From contig NZ_CP019067.1 in NCBI RefSeq assembly GCF_001989615.1, positions 2,790,001 to 2,854,000 on the forward strand: 64,000 nucleotides of DNA, written 5' to 3'. Each line of letters opens with the position of its first letter. The stretch's first letter is position 1. Origin of the DNA: Halorientalis sp. IM1011. GTDB lineage: Archaea > Halobacteriota > Halobacteria > Halobacteriales > Haloarculaceae. Below, piece after piece: positions 53,702-64,000 of the stretch. The position numbers and the translations under genes were made by a program. Under the pieces are notes generated by a model. The model saw nothing but the letters and a program-made list of their open reading frames with translations, did no database searches and was not told the origin of the DNA.

Positions 53702-53850
53702 CGGCCGTCGATTCGACGACTGCGGGACTAAAACACGCCCCACGATGCTGTGGGGAAAGTCGTGCCCCGACCCCGGGAAGCGACCCCTCGTCACTTAAAC
53801 AACCACGACGTTTTGGTCGGGAAGCTACCGAGGGCCGGGTCGAAGGCTAG

Positions 53851-53868
53851 CCGACGCGTTCGCGTCGG
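53851..53868 (+). promoter_or_regulatory. Hairpin just before the mrp start codon
   Basis: CCGACGCG and CGCGTCGG flank TT, giving an 8-bp perfect inverted repeat (7-bp stem with a 4-base loop), ending 10 bases before the ATG at 53879. It sits where a ribosome-binding site would be. It could limit translation. Confidence 0.45.
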
Positions 53869-53878
53869 AGACACCAGC

Positions 53879-55267
53879 ATGTCACACGATCTCGAATCCG
53901 CGGTCGAGTCGGCGCTGGGGCAGGTACAGAACCCGTCGCTGGGAAGCGACGTGTACGAGGCCGGGCTGATCCACGATCTGGCGGTGGAGGACGGCGACGT
54001 GACCGTGGCCCTCGATCAGACGGCCGTCGATCCGACGATGGCCCGCGGGGTCGCCGACGCCGTGGTCAGCGCGGTCGGCGGCGTCGACGGCGTGAACGAG
54101 GTGTCCGTCCGGCGGGTCTCCCCGCAGTCACCCGGCAGGCAACGCGGCGGTGCTGGGCACCCGGCAGGCAACGCGGCGGGCAGCCAGGCAGCGACGAACG
54201 GACACGCGGCAGGCGGTCACCACGGGCCCGGCGCCGGTCACCACGACCACGCGGAACACGGTCACGAGGCCGGCGGGGACGACGAAGCCGGCGCGTTCGC
54301 GGATATCGACCGGGTGATCGCGGTCGCGAGCGCGAAAGGCGGCGTCGGGAAGTCCACGGTCGCGGTCCAGCTCGCCTGTGCGCTGGCCGAGGACGACGAC
54401 GTGGGGATCTTCGACGCCGACCTCTACGGGCCGAACGTCCCGACGCTGCTCGACGTGGACGGCCCGGTCCGCGCGGGGGCGGACGACCGGCCACAGCCGG
54501 TCGAGACTGGCGGCGTCGAGGTGATGAGTACGGGGCTGATGAACGATAGCCAGCCGCTGGCCTGGCGCGGGTCGGTCGCTCACGACGTGGTGACGGATCT
54601 CGCCGAGACCACGGACTGGACCGACCGGGACGTGCTCGTGCTGGACCTGCCGCCGGGGACCGGCGACGTGCCGCTCTCGATATTGCAGGAGACGAGCGTC
54701 GACGGCGTGGTGTTCGTGACGACGCCGTTCCAGTCGAGCGTGGCCGACACCCGCCGTAGCGTCGAGTTGTTCGCCGACGAGGGGGTGCCGGTGCTGGGAA
54801 CGGTCCTGAACATGGCCAGTCACACCTGTCCCGAGTGCGGGGACGAGCACCCGCTGTTCGACGGCGGCGATGCCGACGACCTCGACGTGCCGGTCCTCGC
54901 GGAACTCCCCTTCACCGACGAGGTACAGGCCACGGCCGTCCCCGGCGAGGTCCCGGAGTCGTTCGACGAGCTGGCCGAGCGCGTCACCGAGCGACTGGCC
55001 GAAGTCGGAGGGATCGAGGTGGACGACAACGACGCGGTCGACGTTCGGGGACTCGACTCCGAGGCGCGCTACGACGCCGTCGAGGAGGGGTTCACGTCGG
55101 TCGACTCTGGCGAGGCGTTCTACCTCGTGAGCGACCGCGATCCGACGCCAGTCCGGGAGTTCCTCGGCGACCTCGCGGGTGTCGACGATCCGGTACTCGC
55201 TTTCCAGCCGTTCGAGGTCGAAAAGCGGGACGCAGAGACGTGGGTGTTGCGGACGAGACGGCCCTGA
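53879..55267 (+). CDS. Mrp/NBP35-type Fe-S carrier ATPase fused to DUF2249
   Basis: 462 aa, longer than usual Mrp (about 345-380). Order: DUF59/MIP18-like domain (about 1-85); His/Gly-rich linker (about 92-138, with several HH pairs); deviant Walker A KGGVGKST (153-160); SIMIBI ATPase with DADLYGPNVPT and LVLDLPPGTGD; the Cys pair of the Fe-S site CPEC (317-320); then a C-terminal DUF2249 domain (about 387-460, VDVRGLDSEARYDAVEEGF ... LVSDRDPTPVREFL). DUF2249 is linked in other genomes to respiration. The neighbouring molybdoenzyme operon needs many Fe-S clusters, which suggests a link. Confidence 0.88.
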   Translation: MSHDLESAVESALGQVQNPSLGSDVYEAGLIHDLAVEDGDVTVALDQTAVDPTMARGVADAVVSAVGGVDGVNEVSVRRVSPQSPGRQRGGAGHPAGNAAGSQAATNGHAAGGHHGPGAGHHDHAEHGHEAGGDDEAGAFADIDRVIAVASAKGGVGKSTVAVQLACALAEDDDVGIFDADLYGPNVPTLLDVDGPVRAGADDRPQPVETGGVEVMSTGLMNDSQPLAWRGSVAHDVVTDLAETTDWTDRDVLVLDLPPGTGDVPLSILQETSVDGVVFVTTPFQSSVADTRRSVELFADEGVPVLGTVLNMASHTCPECGDEHPLFDGGDADDLDVPVLAELPFTDEVQATAVPGEVPESFDELAERVTERLAEVGGIEVDDNDAVDVRGLDSEARYDAVEEGFTSVDSGEAFYLVSDRDPTPVREFLGDLAGVDDPVLAFQPFEVEKRDAETWVLRTRRP

Positions 55268-55297: not shown

Positions 55298-55933
55298 TCA
55301 CTCCGGGTCGACGATGGCGTCCAGTACTTTCGACTGGGCGATGGCGAGGTGTTCGGTGAACGTCGAGAGCGTGATGCCGAGTTCCTCGGCCACGTGGCTG
55401 GCGTTGGCCTCGCGGGGGTGCTCGAAGTAGCCCATCTCGTAGGCGGTCTCGAGGACCTCCCGCTGGCGGTCGGTGAGCCGGCTCCGGTCGACGAGGACGA
55501 GGTTCTCCTCGTCCACGTCGCCGGACTGGCTGAGGTGTTTCAGCCGGACGCCCTCGTAACGCTCCCGGAGCTCCGAGACGATCTCGCGGACCTGCGCCAC
55601 GTCGGGCGCGTAGAAGGTCAGGTGGAGCCGGCCGTCCTCGGCCCGGACGTTCTGTAACGGAGAGCCCTGCAACTCGACGGTTTCACAGGCACAGGGGTCG
55701 GTCCAGTCGCGGTCGAATCGGTAGCGGGTCCGCCCGTCCGTCTCGAAGACGGGATCCACGTCCGCCCGGTTGAGGTCGGCCTCGACGGTGAACTCCTCGG
55801 TCACGTCCCCGTCGCCCGCCCTGTTCCAGGTGACTGATTCGACGGACTGGTCGGTTTCAGCCGATACCTCGCCCGCCGGACAGCCACCCGGGGCGTCGAT
55901 CGCCATCGCGATCTGGAGACCGGTCGCGCTCAT
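55298..55933 (-). CDS. Bat/DmsR-like HTH_10 transcriptional regulator
   Basis: 211 aa from MSATGLQ at 55933. The C-terminal HTH_10 domain (about 153-206, SRLTDRQREVLETAYEMGYFEHPREANASHVAEELGITL) is the DNA-binding end of bacterio-opsin activator type proteins. The N-terminal domain has three cysteines (C18, C81, C83, as CPAGE and CAC), which could bind metal or an Fe-S cluster. It is divergent from the molybdoenzyme operon. In Halobacterium the DMSO reductase operon is regulated by such a protein (DmsR), so it probably controls the operon at 56555. Confidence 0.8.
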   Translation of the reverse strand: MSATGLQIAMAIDAPGGCPAGEVSAETDQSVESVTWNRAGDGDVTEEFTVEADLNRADVDPVFETDGRTRYRFDRDWTDPCACETVELQGSPLQNVRAEDGRLHLTFYAPDVAQVREIVSELRERYEGVRLKHLSQSGDVDEENLVLVDRSRLTDRQREVLETAYEMGYFEHPREANASHVAEELGITLSTFTEHLAIAQSKVLDAIVDPE

Positions 55934-56410
55934 AATCCCCTCTCGGTGCTCCCACAGTATTGGGGTACTCCCGGACACGTTCGGGTCTATCGACCGAGAC
56001 CGGCCGAACTGGGCCGGGCGACCCGCCGCTGGCAAAAAACCCCCCGGAGTTTTGGCTCCACACTGATCCCCGATCGGCCGGTAGGTACAGGTGCAACCGA
56101 ATGCGGGTTCGGTTGCTGGATAGTTCGGGATCAGCGGACCTCACGAACCGGTCCGACGAAGCGTCCACTGCCACCGAACGGCTCCGACCGTTCGGCACGT
56201 TGGCGGTCCGAGTGCTGGTGTCCTCCGCCTCGGCTGTGCCGGGAACCATCCCGGCACGCACACCTATTTCGGGCCGACGGCACATATCTATCAGGTACTT
56301 TATCAAAATCACACTTTAAGCAGCTAGTATGACGGATAACGTATAGTAGAGAAGGAATACGTCTTTCGTACTTCGAATTATAAAGATATCCTAAATTAGG
56401 TGTTACGGCT

Positions 56411-56554: not shown

Positions 56555-59500
56555 ATGTCCCTCTCGCGGCGTGAGTTCCTCGCGGCGGCGGGGACAGGCG
56601 CAGTGGGGGCATTGGTCGGTGACGCCTGGTCGGCGACCCAGGCCGTCGAACCGGTGACCAGCGTGGACAACCCGCTCAGGTCCTACCCCAACAGGGACTG
56701 GGAGCGGGTCTACCACGAGATCTACGAGTACGACGCGGTGGACTGGACGGTCTGTCACCCCAACTGTACCCAGTCGTGCGCGCTGAACTTCTACATGAAA
56801 AACGGGGTGCCGATCAGGGCCGAACAGATCTACCACCAGGAGGAGGGCAGTCCCGGCCCCGGCGGTCCGGGCGGCTACGAGGAGGCCGACGTGAGCCGCC
56901 ACTGGAACCCGCGCGGGTGTATGAAGGGGCTGACCCTCCACCGGCGGACCTTCGAGCCGAGCCGGATCAAGTACCCCATGGTCCGGAAGGGGTGGGACCC
57001 CGAGGACCCGAGCCCGGAGGGGCGGGGGGAAGACGAGTTCGAGCGCGTCTCCTGGGACGAGGCGATCGACCTGATCGCCGAGAAGATGGCCAATCTGGAG
57101 GACAACAAGCGCTTCCACGTCTTCAACGCCATCAAGGCCGACGGGCTGATCACCCGGCACGGCTCGGCGCGGCGGCTGGCCTCCATCTTCGGGGGCTGTG
57201 AGTGGACCGAGTACGACTGGTACGCCGACCTGCCGCCGGGACACGTCATCACGACGGGGTACCAGACCTCAGACGCCGACGCGTCGGCCTGGCGGAAGGC
57301 CGACTTCACGATCATGCAGGGGAAGAACCTGATCCACAACAAGCTCGCGGACAACCACTGGCTCCAGGAGACCCGCGAGCGCGGCGGGAAGATGGTCGGC
57401 GTCTACCCCGACTACTCCCCGACGGTCCAGAAGTGCGATCGCTGGCTCCCCGTCCGCCCCGGCAGCGACCCCGCCTTCGCGCTCGGGATCGCGAACGTCA
57501 TAATCACCGAACAGCTGTACGACGAGGAGTTCATGCGGCAGTTCACGACACTGCCGCTTTTGATTCGCCAGGACGACGGGAAGTACCTGCGCGCACACGA
57601 GGTGTTCGAGGACCACGAGCCGCCGGCCGAGGACGTGGAGGACCAGCACGAACACGACGACTGGGGCGACTTCGTGGCGCTCGATCAGAACGGCGAACTC
57701 GTCGCGATCACCCGCGAGGAGGTCGGCGAGGAGACTCCGGCAACGCCCCGGCTGGAGGTCGACCGCGAGGTGACCCTCGCCGACGGCGACTCCGTGTCCG
57801 TTCACACCGACTTCACGCGCCAGAAGGCCAACATCCTGGAGAACTACGACCCCGAGACCGTCGAGGATATCACGACGATCCCCGCCGAGGGGCTCCGGAA
57901 GACCGCCCGCGAACTGGCCGCCGCCGAGAAGGCCCAGTGGTTCACTGGCGAGGGAATCAACCACTGGTTCCACAGCAACGACTCGCTCCAGCGGACGATC
58001 TTCTTCGTCCAGTCGATGCTGGGCAACATCGGCGAGGCCGGCGCGGGCTACTACAACTACTCCGGCCAGTACAAGATCGAACTGCTGGACGGCTATCCCA
58101 CCTACGTCAACCCGGACGGCCACGCGGCCCACGGGATGTACCCGGGCTATGCCTTCGCCTTCTTCGGCGGGGAGACGCTGGACGCCCACCAGATCCGCGG
58201 GGACTTCGACGAGGACCTCGACCTCGTCCCGCAGGGCGACGCGGACGAGCCGGTGCTGCCGGAGAACGCCGACTCCTACACGATGTCCCGGCCGGCCGTG
58301 CTGTGGACGATGAACTGCAACCTGCTGAACCAGACCAAACACCAGCAACACGTCGTCGAGAACTTCGTCAAGCACCCCGACACGGGTAACGAACTGTTCG
58401 TCGTCTCGGACATGCACATGACGTACTCGGCCCGGCACGCCGACATCGTCCTGCCCGTGCACTCCTGGCTCGAATGCGAGTACCCGGACATCACGGTCGG
58501 GCCGGAGAACCCCTTCCTGCACATGGACCACGGCGTCATGGACCCCATCTACGACACCAAGCAGGACGGGGAGATCGTCGCGCTGGTCGCGGAGAAACTC
58601 GACGAGAAGATCCCGCCCGAGGAGCGCAACGTCGACTCCTACCGGGAGTACTTCCACAAGTTCCTCGACGACGACGAGGACGTGCGGGACTACATCCAGC
58701 AGACCCTCGATGCCGGGATGACCACCCGCGACATCGACGTCGAGGACATCGAGGACGGCCCGGAACGGCTCCAGCTGAAGACCTACCCGCGGATCCCCTT
58801 CTGGTCACAGATCCACGAGGACCGGCCGTTCTACACCAAGACCGGTCGGATGGAGTTCCACAAGGAGGAGGATCGGTTCCTCGAACTCGGTCGCGCGGAT
58901 CTGGACCACATCGAGAGCCCGGAGGGGACGCCGTACGGTCGCAACCAGAAGTGGGACGAGGCAAAAGACGAGGAGAACCCGATCTACCACGATCAGGAGT
59001 ACCAGTTCTACTACAACACGCCCCACCCGAAGTACCGGACTCACTCCTCGTGGGGCATGACGGACTGGAACCTGCTCTGGTCGGCCAGGGACTTCGGGTC
59101 GACCAGCGCCGACCCCGATGGGACCGACCGACTCGTCGAGGACTTCTCGTTCCCGGAGGGTGACGGCGAGACCAACGACACGCCGCCGCTGGGCGAGGCC
59201 TTCGTCGAGATCCACCCAGAGGACGCCGAAGACATAGACGTCGAGACCGGCGACTACGTCCGGATCAGCGGGCTCCGCGGGAGTCTCGTCGTCCGTGCGA
59301 TGGTGAGCGAACGGATGCGCCCCCGCTCGGCCGGCGACATGGGCCAGCTCACCATCTGGCACGGCTGGTGGCCCCAGCACTTCCCGGACGACGAGGAGAA
59401 CCCCGACAGCGAGAAGGGGTACAACGTGACGACGAACATCTGGCTCGACCCCGCCCAGGAGACCGACGACCTCGTCCACAAGGCGGTGTTCGGCGACCCC

Positions 59501-59716
59501 AACATCTCCGACGTGGTCGAGGACGACATCGTCTGGAAGGGTGCCGAACTGGAACACGGCTACGAGGAGACCGTCTGGGCACCGACCGGCACCAACCGCG
59601 ACGACCTCGTGGAGGTCGAGAAGTACGAGGCGGCCGACTGGCGGCCCGGCGACGCGCGCAAGGACGACCTGATGCAGGACTACATTGGAGGGTCGCTGCA
59701 GGGAGGTGACAGCTAA
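56555..59716 (+). CDS. Type II DMSO-reductase-family molybdopterin oxidoreductase, catalytic subunit
   Basis: 1053 aa. A Tat signal SRREFLAAAG sends the folded enzyme outside. The 4Fe-4S ligands are C67, C71, C75 (CHPNCTQSC, a C-x3-C-x3-C spacing) and C122. YDWYADLPPGH (Y220, D221) matches the NarG segment carrying the Mo-ligand Asp, which marks the Nar/Ddh/Ebd/Ser/Clr/Pcr group (type II), not Ser-ligated DmsA. Large insertions make it longer than DmsA. The cofactor is bis-MGD. It shares one base (TAATG) with the Fe-S subunit gene. The substrate cannot be told. Strong GGAGGTGA before the start. Confidence 0.9.
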   Translation: MSLSRREFLAAAGTGAVGALVGDAWSATQAVEPVTSVDNPLRSYPNRDWERVYHEIYEYDAVDWTVCHPNCTQSCALNFYMKNGVPIRAEQIYHQEEGSPGPGGPGGYEEADVSRHWNPRGCMKGLTLHRRTFEPSRIKYPMVRKGWDPEDPSPEGRGEDEFERVSWDEAIDLIAEKMANLEDNKRFHVFNAIKADGLITRHGSARRLASIFGGCEWTEYDWYADLPPGHVITTGYQTSDADASAWRKADFTIMQGKNLIHNKLADNHWLQETRERGGKMVGVYPDYSPTVQKCDRWLPVRPGSDPAFALGIANVIITEQLYDEEFMRQFTTLPLLIRQDDGKYLRAHEVFEDHEPPAEDVEDQHEHDDWGDFVALDQNGELVAITREEVGEETPATPRLEVDREVTLADGDSVSVHTDFTRQKANILENYDPETVEDITTIPAEGLRKTARELAAAEKAQWFTGEGINHWFHSNDSLQRTIFFVQSMLGNIGEAGAGYYNYSGQYKIELLDGYPTYVNPDGHAAHGMYPGYAFAFFGGETLDAHQIRGDFDEDLDLVPQGDADEPVLPENADSYTMSRPAVLWTMNCNLLNQTKHQQHVVENFVKHPDTGNELFVVSDMHMTYSARHADIVLPVHSWLECEYPDITVGPENPFLHMDHGVMDPIYDTKQDGEIVALVAEKLDEKIPPEERNVDSYREYFHKFLDDDEDVRDYIQQTLDAGMTTRDIDVEDIEDGPERLQLKTYPRIPFWSQIHEDRPFYTKTGRMEFHKEEDRFLELGRADLDHIESPEGTPYGRNQKWDEAKDEENPIYHDQEYQFYYNTPHPKYRTHSSWGMTDWNLLWSARDFGSTSADPDGTDRLVEDFSFPEGDGETNDTPPLGEAFVEIHPEDAEDIDVETGDYVRISGLRGSLVVRAMVSERMRPRSAGDMGQLTIWHGWWPQHFPDDEENPDSEKGYNVTTNIWLDPAQETDDLVHKAVFGDPNISDVVEDDIVWKGAELEHGYEETVWAPTGTNRDDLVEVEKYEAADWRPGDARKDDLMQDYIGGSLQGGDS

Positions 59717-60888
59717 TGCCAGACGTCTACAACCCCCAGCTCGGTCGCGAGCAGAGCTACCCCTACGAACACCGCGAGGAGGAGCGCGACTGGCACTGGG
59801 GCATGGTCATCAACACGAACCGCTGTATCAACTGCAACACCTGCTCCTTCGCCTGTAAGTCCACCTGGACCTCGGGCAAGGGACAGGAGTACATGTGGTG
59901 GATGAACGTCGAGACCGAGCCCTACGGCGGCTACCCGATGGGCTGGGACATGCGCCTGCTCGACGACCTCGAAGAAGGACAGACCATCTTCGAGGCCGCC
60001 GAGGACGACGAGCGTGTCAAGGGCTACATAGCTCAAAAGGAAGACTGGGAGTACCCCGCACTCGGCGACGACTCCGTCCACGGCGAGTACCCCGAGGACG
60101 AGGTCGTCGAGAGCGACGTCGAGGAGGGCGAGTACCACGACATCTGGCAGTTCTACCTGCCCCGCCTCTGTAACCACTGCAAGAACCCGGCCTGTCTCGC
60201 GGCCTGCCCGCGACAGGCCGTGTACAAGCGCGACGACGGCATCGTCCTGATCGACCAGGAACGCTGTCGGGGCTACCGCCGCTGTGTCAAGGCCTGTCCG
60301 TACCACAAGCCGATGTTCAACGCCGAGACCGGCGTCACGGAGAAACCCATCGGCTGTTACCCGCGCATCGAGGACGGCAACGTCCCACGGTGTGTCTCCT
60401 CGTGTATCGGGAAGACCCGGCTCCACGGGAACATCAACCGCGGGCCGGACGCCCCCTCGCCTGGCGGGACGGCTCCCGGCGGTCGGAGCCCGATCAACTA
60501 CCTCGTCAAGTCCGACGAGAAGATCGCGCTGCCGCTCTACCCGCAGTTCGGCACCCAGCCGCAGGTGTTCTACATGCCGCCCTACCACGTCCCGCCGGAG
60601 TTCCTGACCCAGATGTTCACGCCGAACACGGAGGAGAAACACAACGACTGGCCGGGCGACACCTACGAGGAGAGCATCGAGATCGTCCAGCAGCGCGTCA
60701 GGGATCCGAGCCACGAGGTGCTGGGCATCCTCCAGCTGTTCGGGGCGACGACCCGGATGATCGAGACGTACGAGGTCACGGACACGCGGGTCAAGGGCTG
60801 GGACCCCGACGGCGAGAAGGTCGTCGACATCCCCATCGAGGAGCCCATGGAGATCCGCGAGGGCGAACAGTGGACCAACCAGCCCTGA
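59716..60888 (+). CDS. Fe-S (four-cluster) beta subunit of the molybdoenzyme
   Basis: 390 aa electron-transfer subunit of the NarH/DdhB/SerB type. Cys clusters: CINCNTCSFACK (C37, C40, C43, C47), CNHCKNPACLAACP, CRGYRRCVKACP and CYPRIEDGNVPRCVSSCIG. CRGYRRC has Tyr where NarH has Trp, as I recall for other type II beta subunits that keep a 3Fe-4S cluster. There is no signal of its own, so it would be co-exported with the Tat substrate. It is followed by a gaggtgatc ribosome-binding site for the chaperone gene. Confidence 0.92.
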   Translation: MPDVYNPQLGREQSYPYEHREEERDWHWGMVINTNRCINCNTCSFACKSTWTSGKGQEYMWWMNVETEPYGGYPMGWDMRLLDDLEEGQTIFEAAEDDERVKGYIAQKEDWEYPALGDDSVHGEYPEDEVVESDVEEGEYHDIWQFYLPRLCNHCKNPACLAACPRQAVYKRDDGIVLIDQERCRGYRRCVKACPYHKPMFNAETGVTEKPIGCYPRIEDGNVPRCVSSCIGKTRLHGNINRGPDAPSPGGTAPGGRSPINYLVKSDEKIALPLYPQFGTQPQVFYMPPYHVPPEFLTQMFTPNTEEKHNDWPGDTYEESIEIVQQRVRDPSHEVLGILQLFGATTRMIETYEVTDTRVKGWDPDGEKVVDIPIEEPMEIREGEQWTNQP

Positions 60889-60898
60889 GGTGATCAGG

Positions 60899-61624
60899 AT
60901 GAGTGACTACACTTTCCCCGACGACGGGACCGACACGGATCGCCACGGGGCCCGGGCTGCGCTGTACGGCGCGCTGGCCGGCGTCTTCGTCTACCCGGAC
61001 GACGAGGTGCTCGCGGACCTCACAGCGCCCGAGGCCGCCGAGGGCATCCGCGCGGCCGCCGAGACCCTCGGACTCGTCGAGGAGGCCGAACGCCTGCTCG
61101 ACGCGCTCGACGAGACCGACGCCGAGTCCCTCGAATCGAGCTACAACGGCCTGTTCGGGTTGCCCACCGACGGCGGCAGCTACGAGGTGGTGCCCTACGA
61201 GGCCGAATACACCGTCGGCGACGACGTGAGCCTCGCCCAGCGCCGGATCGCGACCGTCGCCGGCCTGCTGGAGGCGTTCGATCTGGAGCGGTCGCCCGAC
61301 TTCGCCGAGCGTCACGACCACCTCGCGCTGGAACTGGAACTCGCCCAGATCCTCGCGGCCCAGCGGGCGGCCTCGCTGGCCGCCGACGCCGAGGACCGGG
61401 CGGCCGACCTCGAACGGATCGAGGCCGCGCTGCTCGACAATCACCTCTCGGATTTCCTGCCGTCGCTGGCGATCGACCTGCGGGCGGCGACCGACGATCC
61501 GGTGTATCTGGCGGCCGCCGACCTCGCGGAGAAACTGGTCGGAGCGGACCACGCCGCGCACCCGCCGAGTGACGTGGACGCGGACGCAGACCTCTCCGGT
61601 CCGGCGGGGGTGAGCGCGCGATGA
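60899..61624 (+). CDS. TorD/NarJ/DmsD-like assembly chaperone
   Basis: 241 aa from the ATG at 60899, helical throughout. Typical pieces are RAALYGALAGVFVYPDDEVL (start), LESSYNGLFGLPTDGGSYEVVPYEAEY (the conserved TorD Tyr/Pro segment), and DFLPSLAIDLRA. Such proteins hold the apo-catalytic subunit for cofactor insertion and proofread its Tat signal. It sits between the Fe-S and heme subunits. It overlaps the next gene by 4 bases. Confidence 0.85.
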   Translation: MSDYTFPDDGTDTDRHGARAALYGALAGVFVYPDDEVLADLTAPEAAEGIRAAAETLGLVEEAERLLDALDETDAESLESSYNGLFGLPTDGGSYEVVPYEAEYTVGDDVSLAQRRIATVAGLLEAFDLERSPDFAERHDHLALELELAQILAAQRAASLAADAEDRAADLERIEAALLDNHLSDFLPSLAIDLRAATDDPVYLAAADLAEKLVGADHAAHPPSDVDADADLSGPAGVSAR

Positions 61625-62709
61625 GAGAGCGCCTTCCCGACCGGCTCCGCACGGCGCTGGAACTACCGGGCCGTGCGGCCGCGCGGCTGGACGACTACCC
61701 GCCGGCCCTGTCCGCGCTGGCGGTGGCGCTCGCGGCCGGCGTGTTCGCCGTCGGCCTCGTCGTCGCCGCACAGGCCGGCCTGGCGATGGCGGTCACGGGC
61801 GGGAGTCAGCCGGTGGCCCAGACGTCGACGGTCCCGATGGACGTGGACGCGTCGAACTGGCAGGACGCGCCGAGGCGGACGGTCACGCTGTACGAACAGC
61901 AGATGGCGCTCCCCTACGGCGGCGGGAGCGTCGGCGAGGTCGACGTGAAAGCGATGACCAACGACACCCACGTCGGCTTCCGACTGACCTACGACGATCC
62001 GACGCGGGACCTGGCGCTCGACCGGCCGGGGAACTACAGCGACGCCGCGGCGGTGATGCTGCGCACCGGCGAGCAACCGCCGATCACGATGGGCGCGAGT
62101 GGCCAGCCCGTCGACATCTGGTACTGGCGGGCCAGCTGGCAGTACGCGAACGACAGCGCTGAGGGGGCGGGCGACATGTACAGCTACCCCCACCCGGACA
62201 ACGAGACCCGACCCGGAACTGCGGCCGGGAACCCGATTTCGCAGGCCACCTACGACGACTTCGGCCAGAACTACTACGCGAAGGGCTTCGGCTCGCTGAG
62301 TGACGCGCCGACGCAGACCGTGCGGGCGAACGGCGAGCGGACCGAGGACGGCTGGCAGGTCGTGTTCGTCCGCGAGCGCGACACCGAGGGTCAGTACGAC
62401 GCGACGTTCGGCACGGACGAACCCGTCTACCTCGCCTGGGCGGTCTGGAACGGGAGCGCCGACGAGGTCAACGGCAAGAAGTCGGTCTCGCTGGAGTTCA
62501 CGAAGCTGACGAGCGACGGCTCGCAACTCGTCGCCGCGGACAGCGGCCCCGGCGACGGGACGCCCACGCCGACGGAGAACGCCACGACGACTACCGGGAG
62601 CGGTGACGGCCTGCTCGGCGGTGACCTCGGCAGCTACCTCGTGATGCTCGTGCTGGCGACCGGCCTCGCGTGGCTGTACAGTTACCGGAAGTTCGGAGGT
62701 GAACAATGA
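61621..62709 (+). CDS. Membrane-anchored heme gamma subunit (ethylbenzene-dehydrogenase type)
   Basis: 362 aa. An N-terminal helix (about 31-58), an extracellular beta-sandwich (about 70-300) and a C-terminal helix (about 336-354, YLVMLVLATGLAWLYSYRK). The body resembles the heme-b domain of EbdC/DdhC/SerC: VPMDVDASNWQDAP at the start, VGFRLTYDDPTRDL, AAVMLRTGEQPPITMGASGQPVDIWYWRA. The heme ligands (Met and Lys in relatives) were not assigned. In type II complexes this subunit passes electrons to or from quinone or cytochrome c; here it also provides a membrane anchor. It has its own ATGA overlap. Confidence 0.8.
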   Translation: MRERLPDRLRTALELPGRAAARLDDYPPALSALAVALAAGVFAVGLVVAAQAGLAMAVTGGSQPVAQTSTVPMDVDASNWQDAPRRTVTLYEQQMALPYGGGSVGEVDVKAMTNDTHVGFRLTYDDPTRDLALDRPGNYSDAAAVMLRTGEQPPITMGASGQPVDIWYWRASWQYANDSAEGAGDMYSYPHPDNETRPGTAAGNPISQATYDDFGQNYYAKGFGSLSDAPTQTVRANGERTEDGWQVVFVRERDTEGQYDATFGTDEPVYLAWAVWNGSADEVNGKKSVSLEFTKLTSDGSQLVAADSGPGDGTPTPTENATTTTGSGDGLLGGDLGSYLVMLVLATGLAWLYSYRKFGGEQ

Positions 62710-63656
62710 CCGACTTCGCGATGGAGAGCGCCCGCGGTCGGGCGCTGGACGACGGTGACGGATCGATCTCCGAGGCGCGGCTCCGTACCGCCCTCTCGGA
62801 CGAGGACGCCGGGACACGCCGCGACGCGGCCCTCGCGCTACTCGACCGCGCGCGGGACACCGGCGTCGCCGACGAGACCCGGAAGGCGCTGGCGGCTGGC
62901 GCACGTACCGACGACGACCCGGACGTCCGCCAGTTCGCCGTCGAGGCGCTGGGCGCGGCCGGCGGACCGGTCTCGGCGCTTGCGGCCGCGCTCTCGGACG
63001 ACGACGAGTGGGTCCGCGCCGAGGCGGTCGTCGCCCTCTCCCGCGTCGAGGGGGACGTTTCCGAGCCGATCCGGACGGCGGCCGACGACGACAGCGGCTG
63101 GGTCCGACGCAACGCGGTCATCGCGCTGGGCAAGCGCGAGGCCGCGAGCTGGGACCTGCTCGCCGACCGGCTCAAGAACGACCCGCACCCGCCGGTCCGG
63201 GAGTACGCGGCGGCGTTCCTCCCGGGGTACGCCGACGCGGCCGGCGACGAGGACGCCGTGCGACTGCTGGCGGCCGTGCTGGCCCGCGACCAGAACGCCT
63301 TCGTCCGCGCGAAGGCCGCCGTCTCGCTGGGTGACTTCGGGACCGACCGTGCCCAGCAGGCACTGGAGGAACAGGGCCTGCAGGACCGATCGGACGACGT
63401 GCAGCGGGCCGCGAAGCGCGCGCTGGCCCGCGCCCGCGGCGAGGACCCCGACGACGTCGACGTGTCGGACTGCGGCCCGGACGTGCCAGGTGGCGAACTG
63501 GCCCCGGACGGGACCAGCACCCACCCGGACGTACCGGGACAGGGCGGATCGAGCGGACGACAGCCGAGCGGCCCCGGCCCGTCTCCCTCGCGCGAGGGAA
63601 TGGGCGGTTCGAACCGGCCGCGCCCGAACGACGGCCCGGGAGGGCCGGGCTACTGA
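62706..63656 (+). CDS. HEAT-repeat protein of the molybdoenzyme operon
   Basis: 316 aa. About six to seven HEAT-type helical pairs (about 25-245), with repeating ALSDDDEWVRAEAVVALS, RRNAVIALGKREA, VREYAAAFLPGY and VRAKAAVSLGDFG segments. The C-terminal 70 residues are Gly/Pro/Ser-rich and disordered, with one Cys. It is probably a scaffold for complex assembly; no lyase motif is visible. It overlaps the gamma gene by 4 bases with a ggaggtgaac site before the start. Confidence 0.8.
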   Translation: MTDFAMESARGRALDDGDGSISEARLRTALSDEDAGTRRDAALALLDRARDTGVADETRKALAAGARTDDDPDVRQFAVEALGAAGGPVSALAAALSDDDEWVRAEAVVALSRVEGDVSEPIRTAADDDSGWVRRNAVIALGKREAASWDLLADRLKNDPHPPVREYAAAFLPGYADAAGDEDAVRLLAAVLARDQNAFVRAKAAVSLGDFGTDRAQQALEEQGLQDRSDDVQRAAKRALARARGEDPDDVDVSDCGPDVPGGELAPDGTSTHPDVPGQGGSSGRQPSGPGPSPSREGMGGSNRPRPNDGPGGPGY

Positions 63657-63666
63657 GGGGATACCC

Positions 63667-64000
63667 ATGACCGACACGGACACCAGCACCGACGAATCGC
63701 TCGCGGTATCGATCCCGGACGAACACGCCGGCGCGTTCGTCGCCGAGGTCTTCGAGGACGCCGAGCGCTCGACGACGTGGGAGGATGCCGTCGACGCGAT
63801 GGTCGCCCCCTCGGCGCGCGACGCCTGGGAGGAACTCTCCCCGAAGGAGCAGGTGATCGAGGTCCTGCAGAAGGCCGACGAGTACGACGAGCGCGCGGCC
63901 GAGCTACTCGAAGACGTGCCGCTCCGCGGGAGCGACCCCTCGCCGGAGACCCGGGAGACCTTCGAGGACGCGCTGCGGATCCGTCGCAACGCCGACGTGT
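63667..64000 (+). CDS. Unknown protein of the molybdoenzyme operon, C-terminus cut
   Basis: 111 codons visible from the ATG at 63667. Acidic soluble start (TDTSTDESLAVSIPDEHAG), then helices ERSTTWEDAVDAMVAPS and SPKEQVIEVLQKADEYDERAAELLEDV. No family is recognised. It follows the HEAT gene by 10 bases, so it belongs to the same transcript. The rest lies beyond the window. Confidence 0.55.
   Translation, partial: MTDTDTSTDESLAVSIPDEHAGAFVAEVFEDAERSTTWEDAVDAMVAPSARDAWEELSPKEQVIEVLQKADEYDERAAELLEDVPLRGSDPSPETRETFEDALRIRRNADV

Follow-up and report, generated by a model that had tools for sequence, protein, structure and literature searches.

An exported haloarchaeal molybdoenzyme operon of the nitrite oxidoreductase lineage, probably a nitrate/nitrite oxidoreductase

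Introduction

Much of the nitrate formed biologically comes from enzymes of the periplasmic nitrite oxidoreductase (NXR) type. Their origin has been suggested to lie in a bacterial or archaeal donor that reduced nitrate or oxidised nitrite, and archaeal nitrate reductases have been placed next to NXR (PMC3578206). The anammox enzyme of Kuenenia, NXR-ABC (PDB 7b04), combines an exported alpha, an Fe-S beta and a haem gamma of the ethylbenzene dehydrogenase (EB_dh) type with Met/Lys ligands; Asp275 is stated to be its Mo ligand, NXR works both ways, and the FS0 clusters of nitrate reductases (NARs) and NXRs are described as 3Cys/1His or 3Cys/1Asp (PMC8387239). NXR and NAR have further been set apart at three positions: Asn312/Thr259, Glu527/Ala542 and Lys917/His1092 (PMC12300631). 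The haloarchaeal nitrate reductase pNar consists of NarGH, a gamma and NarAB, and some haloarchaea respire nitrate without a recognised NarG (PMC8400030).

Here we describe an operon of this kind in a window of 64,000 nucleotides from Halorientalis sp. IM1011 (contig NZ_CP019067.1, positions 2,790,001 to 2,854,000). Halobacteriota had already been seen within the wider NXR-A clade (PMC12758564); in the literature searched, we found no description of the function, operon, ligand changes or nitrate-respiration link of the family to which the window operon belongs.

Results

Operon layout

A tight plus-strand operon, in which adjacent genes overlap or abut, occupies the right end of the window. 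Its genes and those beside it are (window coordinates):

53750..55267, plus strand: Mrp/ApbC-type P-loop Fe-S carrier ATPase (MrpORP/ApbC match, E 1e-58; start uncertain)
55298..56002, minus strand: DmsR/NarO-type HTH_10 regulator, divergent from the operon (PF24277, E 1e-42; PF04967, E 6e-21)
56555..59716, plus strand: alpha, catalytic Mo-bisMGD subunit of the NXR branch, 1053 aa (PF00384, 2.8e-41; also PF01568)
59716..60888, plus strand: beta, Fe-S electron relay subunit (Fer4 clusters, 14 cluster Cys; best PDB match 7b04_A)
60890..61624, plus strand: TorD/NarJ-type assembly chaperone (PF02613, 5.9e-19; TIGR03482, 4e-19)
61621..62709, plus strand: gamma, haem-b subunit, predicted to be membrane-anchored (EB_dh haem domain PF09459, 2.3e-29)
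62706..63656, plus strand: HEAT-repeat protein, accessory (PF13646, 4.9e-33; synteny)
63667..64000 and 224 bases beyond the window end, plus strand: small acidic helical protein of ~185 aa, conserved in the operon

The alpha subunit opens with the Tat motif MSLSRREFL (SRREFL) and carries the FS0 motif C67-x3-C71-x3-C75-x46-C122 and YDWYADLPPG at 220-229, and beta, which has no signal, carries CRGYRRC at 184-190, all as the initial annotation had read them. Profile searches likewise bore out its DmsR-type regulator, its TorD chaperone and its ethylbenzene-dehydrogenase-like haem gamma; the haem-domain similarity of gamma was thus clear, and hydropathy placed hydrophobic segments near both ends of this subunit (32-50 and about 331-349). 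The operon had been taken to stop at gamma, but the HEAT-repeat gene and the small acidic protein gene come next. The latter, found at 19 loci in the synteny comparison (cluster c6), gave zero Pfam or NCBIfam matches in the profile search, and the AlphaFold model of its product (fair, 78) had no PDB fold match at E ≤ 0.001. The Mrp gene (cluster c3) was present in 18 of 22 loci, immediately 3' of the operon in most other species and relocated upstream in Halorientalis sp. IM1011. Among the operon genes checked there was no NrfD gene and no Rieske or cytochrome b gene, and no NXR-T tubule gene was seen with the operon.

Phylogenetic position

The three subunits each matched the anammox enzyme best among PDB entries: alpha found NxrA (7b04_B) at 4e-129, followed by PcrA (4e-71), NarG (8e-52) and EbdA (6e-40); beta found NxrB (7b04_A) at 7.5e-86, followed by PcrB (2.5e-55); gamma found NxrC (7b04_C) at 2.7e-21, followed by EbdC (7e-12). 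In a maximum-likelihood tree of 42 rows (LG+C20 PMSF), the sister group of the alpha family consisted of Kuenenia NxrA and five haloarchaeal NxrA-like proteins (100/100), and NarG, pNarG, PcrA, ClrA and EbdA clustered together elsewhere. The beta tree was concordant, with grouping to NxrB at 96/95. These trees were built without Nitrospira, Nitrospina, SerA, DdhA and Pseudomonadota clade members; in the alpha tree, the NxrA, PcrA and EbdA rows come from printed HMMER alignments and cover these proteins only in part (864 of 1148 residues for NxrA). In this sampling, alpha and beta grouped with NxrA and NxrB as sister, not nested.

AU tests rejected a union of the alpha family with Nar/pNar/Pcr (p 1e-30), with Clr/Ebd (p 1.6e-34), and with both together (p 6e-6). 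Long-branch attraction as the source of the NXR grouping was discarded, the alpha grouping being unchanged without Kuenenia or without the haloarchaeal NxrA-like rows. An assignment to the Nar/Ddh/Ebd/Ser/Clr/Pcr group had been made earlier: the export, the Asp ligation, the type II character and the haem gamma of the complex stand, whereas membership of the Nar/Pcr/Clr/Ebd branch does not, and EbdA-type hydrocarbon oxidation is ruled out by the tree. Nor did alpha, an Asp-ligated type II enzyme, fall within Ser-ligated DmsA/TorA.

Among NCBIfam profiles, the subunits matched TIGR03479, 03478, 03482 and 03477 best, each at a strong E-value; all bit scores (430/233/69/136) lie below the cut-offs (985/481/152/170), and the window complex is a relative outside the curated type II NCBIfam core.

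Cofactor ligands and active site

The earlier choice of D221 as Mo ligand is not upheld by alignment. The second Asp of YDWYAD, D225, aligns with PcrA D170, NarG D222/223 and NxrA D275 and is assigned as the Mo ligand of alpha, whereas NxrA has Thr at the D221 position. The substrate Asn (Asn70/N52) has its equivalent in N70. N262 and E466 are the NXR-type Asn312 and Glu527 (T and A in NARs, T and K in pNarG), and H824, at the Lys917 position, is His as in NAR, giving NXR-type residues at two of the three positions. At the gate, E219 takes the place of the Phe of Nar and Pcr, and Y506 occupies a position that is Glu in NAR, Trp in PcrA and Tyr in NxrA. An AlphaFold model of alpha from an 11-row alignment reached pLDDT 42 and was left unused.

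The C-x3-C-x3-C part of FS0 is identical in the window and all 21 named orthologues. Its first position corresponds to NXR Cys67 and its second to NAR Cys53, so the window family mixes one half of each type; a four-Cys FS0 also occurs in ~900-aa relatives from another family of the phylum. In beta, Pro211 stands where NarH, pNarH, ClrB and NxrB have a cluster Cys (22 of 22 orthologues), and all 14 remaining cluster Cys are kept across these 22; the position is that of NarH C244, which we take to be an FS2 ligand. The axial haem ligands of gamma are M157 and K287 by alignment, invariant among the orthologues compared. Across the orthologues checked the predicted electron relay is therefore unusual, with a four-Cys FS0 and one FS2 Cys of beta replaced by Pro. 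The operon belongs to the NXR lineage; judged by FS0 and Lys917, at which the sequences depart from NXR, it would not be NXR proper.

Comparison with described systems

With Kuenenia NXR (PDB 7b04, PMC8387239), the window complex has in common the exported alpha, the Fe-S beta, the EB_dh-type gamma with Met/Lys ligands and an insert found in both gammas, the Asp Mo ligand, the substrate Asn, the Asn312/Glu527 equivalents and the gate Tyr. It differs in the four Cys of FS0 (3Cys/1Asp in NXR), in H824 and gate E219, in the FS2 Cys missing from beta, in its predicted membrane-anchored gamma and in having no visible NXR-T gene. The haloarchaeal NxrA-like clade (~1190-1220 aa) is likewise exported and of the NXR branch, at 35-37% identity, but has its own C-x3-D FS0 as in NXR, keeps Lys917, and has Thr/Ser and Met at the Asn312/Glu527 positions. 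PcrA (4ydd), ClrA and EbdA (2ivf) share the type II fold and Asp Mo ligand, and Clr and Ebd an EB_dh gamma; their FS0 has His, their gate residues are different, and sister placement is rejected by the AU tests above.

A full pNar operon lies ~100 kb away in the same genome, with its own DmsR/NarO-type regulator (41% identical to the window regulator), gamma, chaperone, HEAT and Mrp genes, together with Rieske and cytochrome b genes. The two systems share Tat export, haem gamma, TorD chaperone, HEAT, Mrp and regulator type, and these common accessory genes suggest common assembly needs. Alpha, however, is only about 33% identical to that of pNar and sits in another branch, the gate has Tyr in place of Glu and FS0 Cys67 in place of His, and the narAB Rieske/cytochrome b genes of pNar have no counterpart. 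A 'dms-like' neighbourhood, as first proposed, is ruled out: the regulator type is common to pNar and NarO, the denitrification regulator, which is in the same class as DmsR (PMC11218638).

Distribution, neighbourhood and nitrate respiration

Gene order (alpha-beta-chaperone-gamma-HEAT-small protein-Mrp) is largely conserved across 21 named haloarchaeal species of Natrinema, Natrialba, Haloarcula, Halosimplex, Halostella, Halobaculum, Halorussus and other genera, with alpha 77-88% identical; the operon is thus not a chance assembly. Within the class, about 41 of 391 genomes have it, and it is plasmid-borne in three Halobaculum. Neighbour genes were scored within the retrieved flanks of orthologous loci. 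Two Halosimplex carry a pNar operon divergent from, and head-to-head with, the window-type operon. NirK, NorB and halocyanin lie in the flanks of two Halorussus, NirK and halocyanin in Halostella, NorB in two Natrialba, and NirK, NorB, halocyanin and a formate/nitrite transporter near the operon on a Halobaculum plasmid. Four Natrinema have a cytochrome-d1 protein with a cupredoxin/CuA-like domain, two d1-like propellers and HemA; six have MobB and molybdate-type ABC genes (ModAB). Denitrification neighbours in four of seven genera would arise by chance at about 7e-7, given about 1% per genus, a rough figure that ignores relatedness and gene clustering. We saw no chlorite dismutase or sulfur genes in those orthologue flanks that were inspected.

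pNarG is also present in 11 of the 21 named species (in pieces in one) and was not found in the other ten: six Natrinema, two Natrialba, Halobaculum litoreum and Halorussus aquaticus. Natrinema altunense and N. versiforme have been reported to grow anaerobically on nitrate with NarG/NarH not found (PMC8400030), and both genomes hold an intact window-type alpha and no pNarG, alongside two other PF00384 proteins in N. altunense (727 and 834 aa) and three in N. versiforme. This match, made solely through PMC8400030, is the strongest functional pointer, but it is a correlation in only two named species.

Discussion

With the anatomy, phylogenetic position, denitrification neighbourhood and aligned cofactor ligands of the complex in hand, we infer its substrate, direction and electron donor. 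The initial annotation had held that a substrate could not be chosen; nitrate/nitrite can be, and is very probably right. On balance, we consider the complex a probable nitrate/nitrite oxidoreductase on the outer membrane face, most likely run as a nitrate reductase. Alpha-beta would be exported by the Tat pathway, beta travelling with alpha, and held at the outer membrane face by the haem-b gamma, with nitrate and nitrite interconverted at the Asp-ligated Mo-bisMGD centre. By its phylogenetic position the complex is an archaeal, early-branching member of the periplasmic NXR lineage. Since the operon has no quinol module, electrons would be exchanged with a different carrier outside the cytoplasm, for which halocyanin is our best guess; in heterotrophic haloarchaea, respiratory nitrate reduction would run from such a donor through the gamma haem and FS4 to FS0 to nitrate.

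The same complex could work physiologically as a nitrite oxidase, turning nitrite into nitrate outside the membrane while a high-potential gamma haem delivers the electrons to halocyanin and an oxidase; this would serve detoxification or yield additional energy. NXR is the closest solved enzyme, N262 and E466 are as in NxrA, a quinol-oxidising module is lacking, halocyanin genes lie near several operon copies, and a separate pNar coexists in 11 of 21 species. We nevertheless regard this as unlikely: NXR Asp71 and Lys917 are Cys71 and H824 in alpha, as in NARs, the hosts are heterotrophs with denitrification genes, and two hosts without pNarG respire nitrate (PMC8400030). The main substrate might instead be another oxyanion or a sulfur compound (chlorate, perchlorate, selenate, tetrathionate or DMSO), with the denitrification neighbours reflecting shared anaerobic regulation only. 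The promiscuity of pNar and PcrA towards chlorate and nitrate (PMC8301774), gate E219 in place of the Phe of PcrA and Nar, and the DmsR-type regulator would fit, but the examined flanks showed neither chlorite dismutase nor sulfur genes, the AU tests reject Pcr and Clr/Ebd unions, and the active-site pair is NXR-type, which leaves such a substrate rather improbable. A haloarchaeal dms-type DMSO/TMAO reductase with an exchanged anchor would share the regulator type, and the Ser/Asp contrast cannot separate it, because an Asp ligand is also listed for haloarchaeal DmsA (PMC10100899); the dms operon, however, has an NrfD/PsrC anchor and an alpha of ~830 aa that is a distant outgroup in our tree, whereas the window gamma is of the EB_dh haem type, and we give this explanation hardly any credence.

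Several observations run counter to the nitrate-reductase reading. The enzyme would be redundant in the 11 of 21 species that have pNarG, and its operon lacks a counterpart of narAB, the quinol-oxidising cytochrome b/Rieske module of pNar. Its FS0 and FS2 ligands do not match those in the characterised NARs and NXRs used for comparison, and at least three genomes have a split or disrupted alpha. Nitrate phenotype and gene coincide in only two named species, which have other Mo enzymes, among them the 834-aa one in N. altunense.

We advance one broader idea tentatively, as possible but doubtful. The window family may preserve a step between NAR and NXR, in which FS0 passes from His-x3-Cys (NAR) through Cys-x3-Cys (window family) to Cys-x3-Asp (NXR) with the Asn/Glu pair already NXR-type; it might then be a reversible archaeal nitrate/nitrite enzyme whose rewired relay (four-Cys FS0, three-Cys FS2) sustains nitrate respiration without NarG or even archaeal nitrite oxidation.

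For haloarchaea that respire nitrate without a recognised NarG (PMC8400030), the window-type operon offers a named candidate in two, and in several related archaea it is a good candidate for the nitrate-respiring enzyme that has been missing. An archaeal group that can be cultured, branches immediately outside NXR and has ligands of an intermediate type would open the way to genetics that are impossible in anammox bacteria.

Relatives of the catalytic subunit

In the alpha subunit tree, Kuenenia NxrA was placed as sister of a second haloarchaeal clade (genome pieces L049, L058, L090, L091 and L065:7001-10371), whose proteins are about 1187-1247 aa long and share the C-x3-D FS0 motif of NXR. 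A survey of the class's genomes revealed that this clade is frequent within one family of the Halobacteria. A copy on plasmid 2 of Natronococcus occultus SP4 is frameshifted and carries no gene annotation. Smaller relatives of approximately 900 aa, from another family of the phylum (L092-L098), have a four-Cys FS0 and branch outside every named type II group.

FS2 cluster of the beta subunit

Alignment revealed that Pro211 of beta (window 60346-60348) replaces one FS2 cluster Cys in 22 of 22 orthologues; FS2 is possibly a second three-iron cluster or a non-Cys cluster.

Operon neighborhood and integrity

Window 53750-55267: Mrp ATPase gene, upstream of the operon's regulator
Window 63667-64000 (L006:9667-10224 in the same genome's longer piece): acidic all-helical protein, conserved in the operon
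L023:3034-9706 (also L011, L027, L028): Tat-exported protein in which a CuA-like cupredoxin is fused to a cytochrome d1 domain (PF02239, E 7e-76), together with its neighbors

In most other species the Mrp gene immediately follows the operon, whereas in the window it lies upstream of the regulator. Family and fold searches with the small acidic protein returned no match of either kind. In four Natrinema, the cupredoxin-cytochrome d1 fusion, two d1-like propellers and HemA adjoin the operon; NirK has been named as the sole haloarchaeal nitrite reductase (PMC8400030). Some genomes (L028; G349, G552, G767, G780), for example that of Natrinema pallidum DSM 3751, carry alpha in split, interrupted or fragmentary form, indicating either assembly errors or that alpha is dispensable in some lineages.
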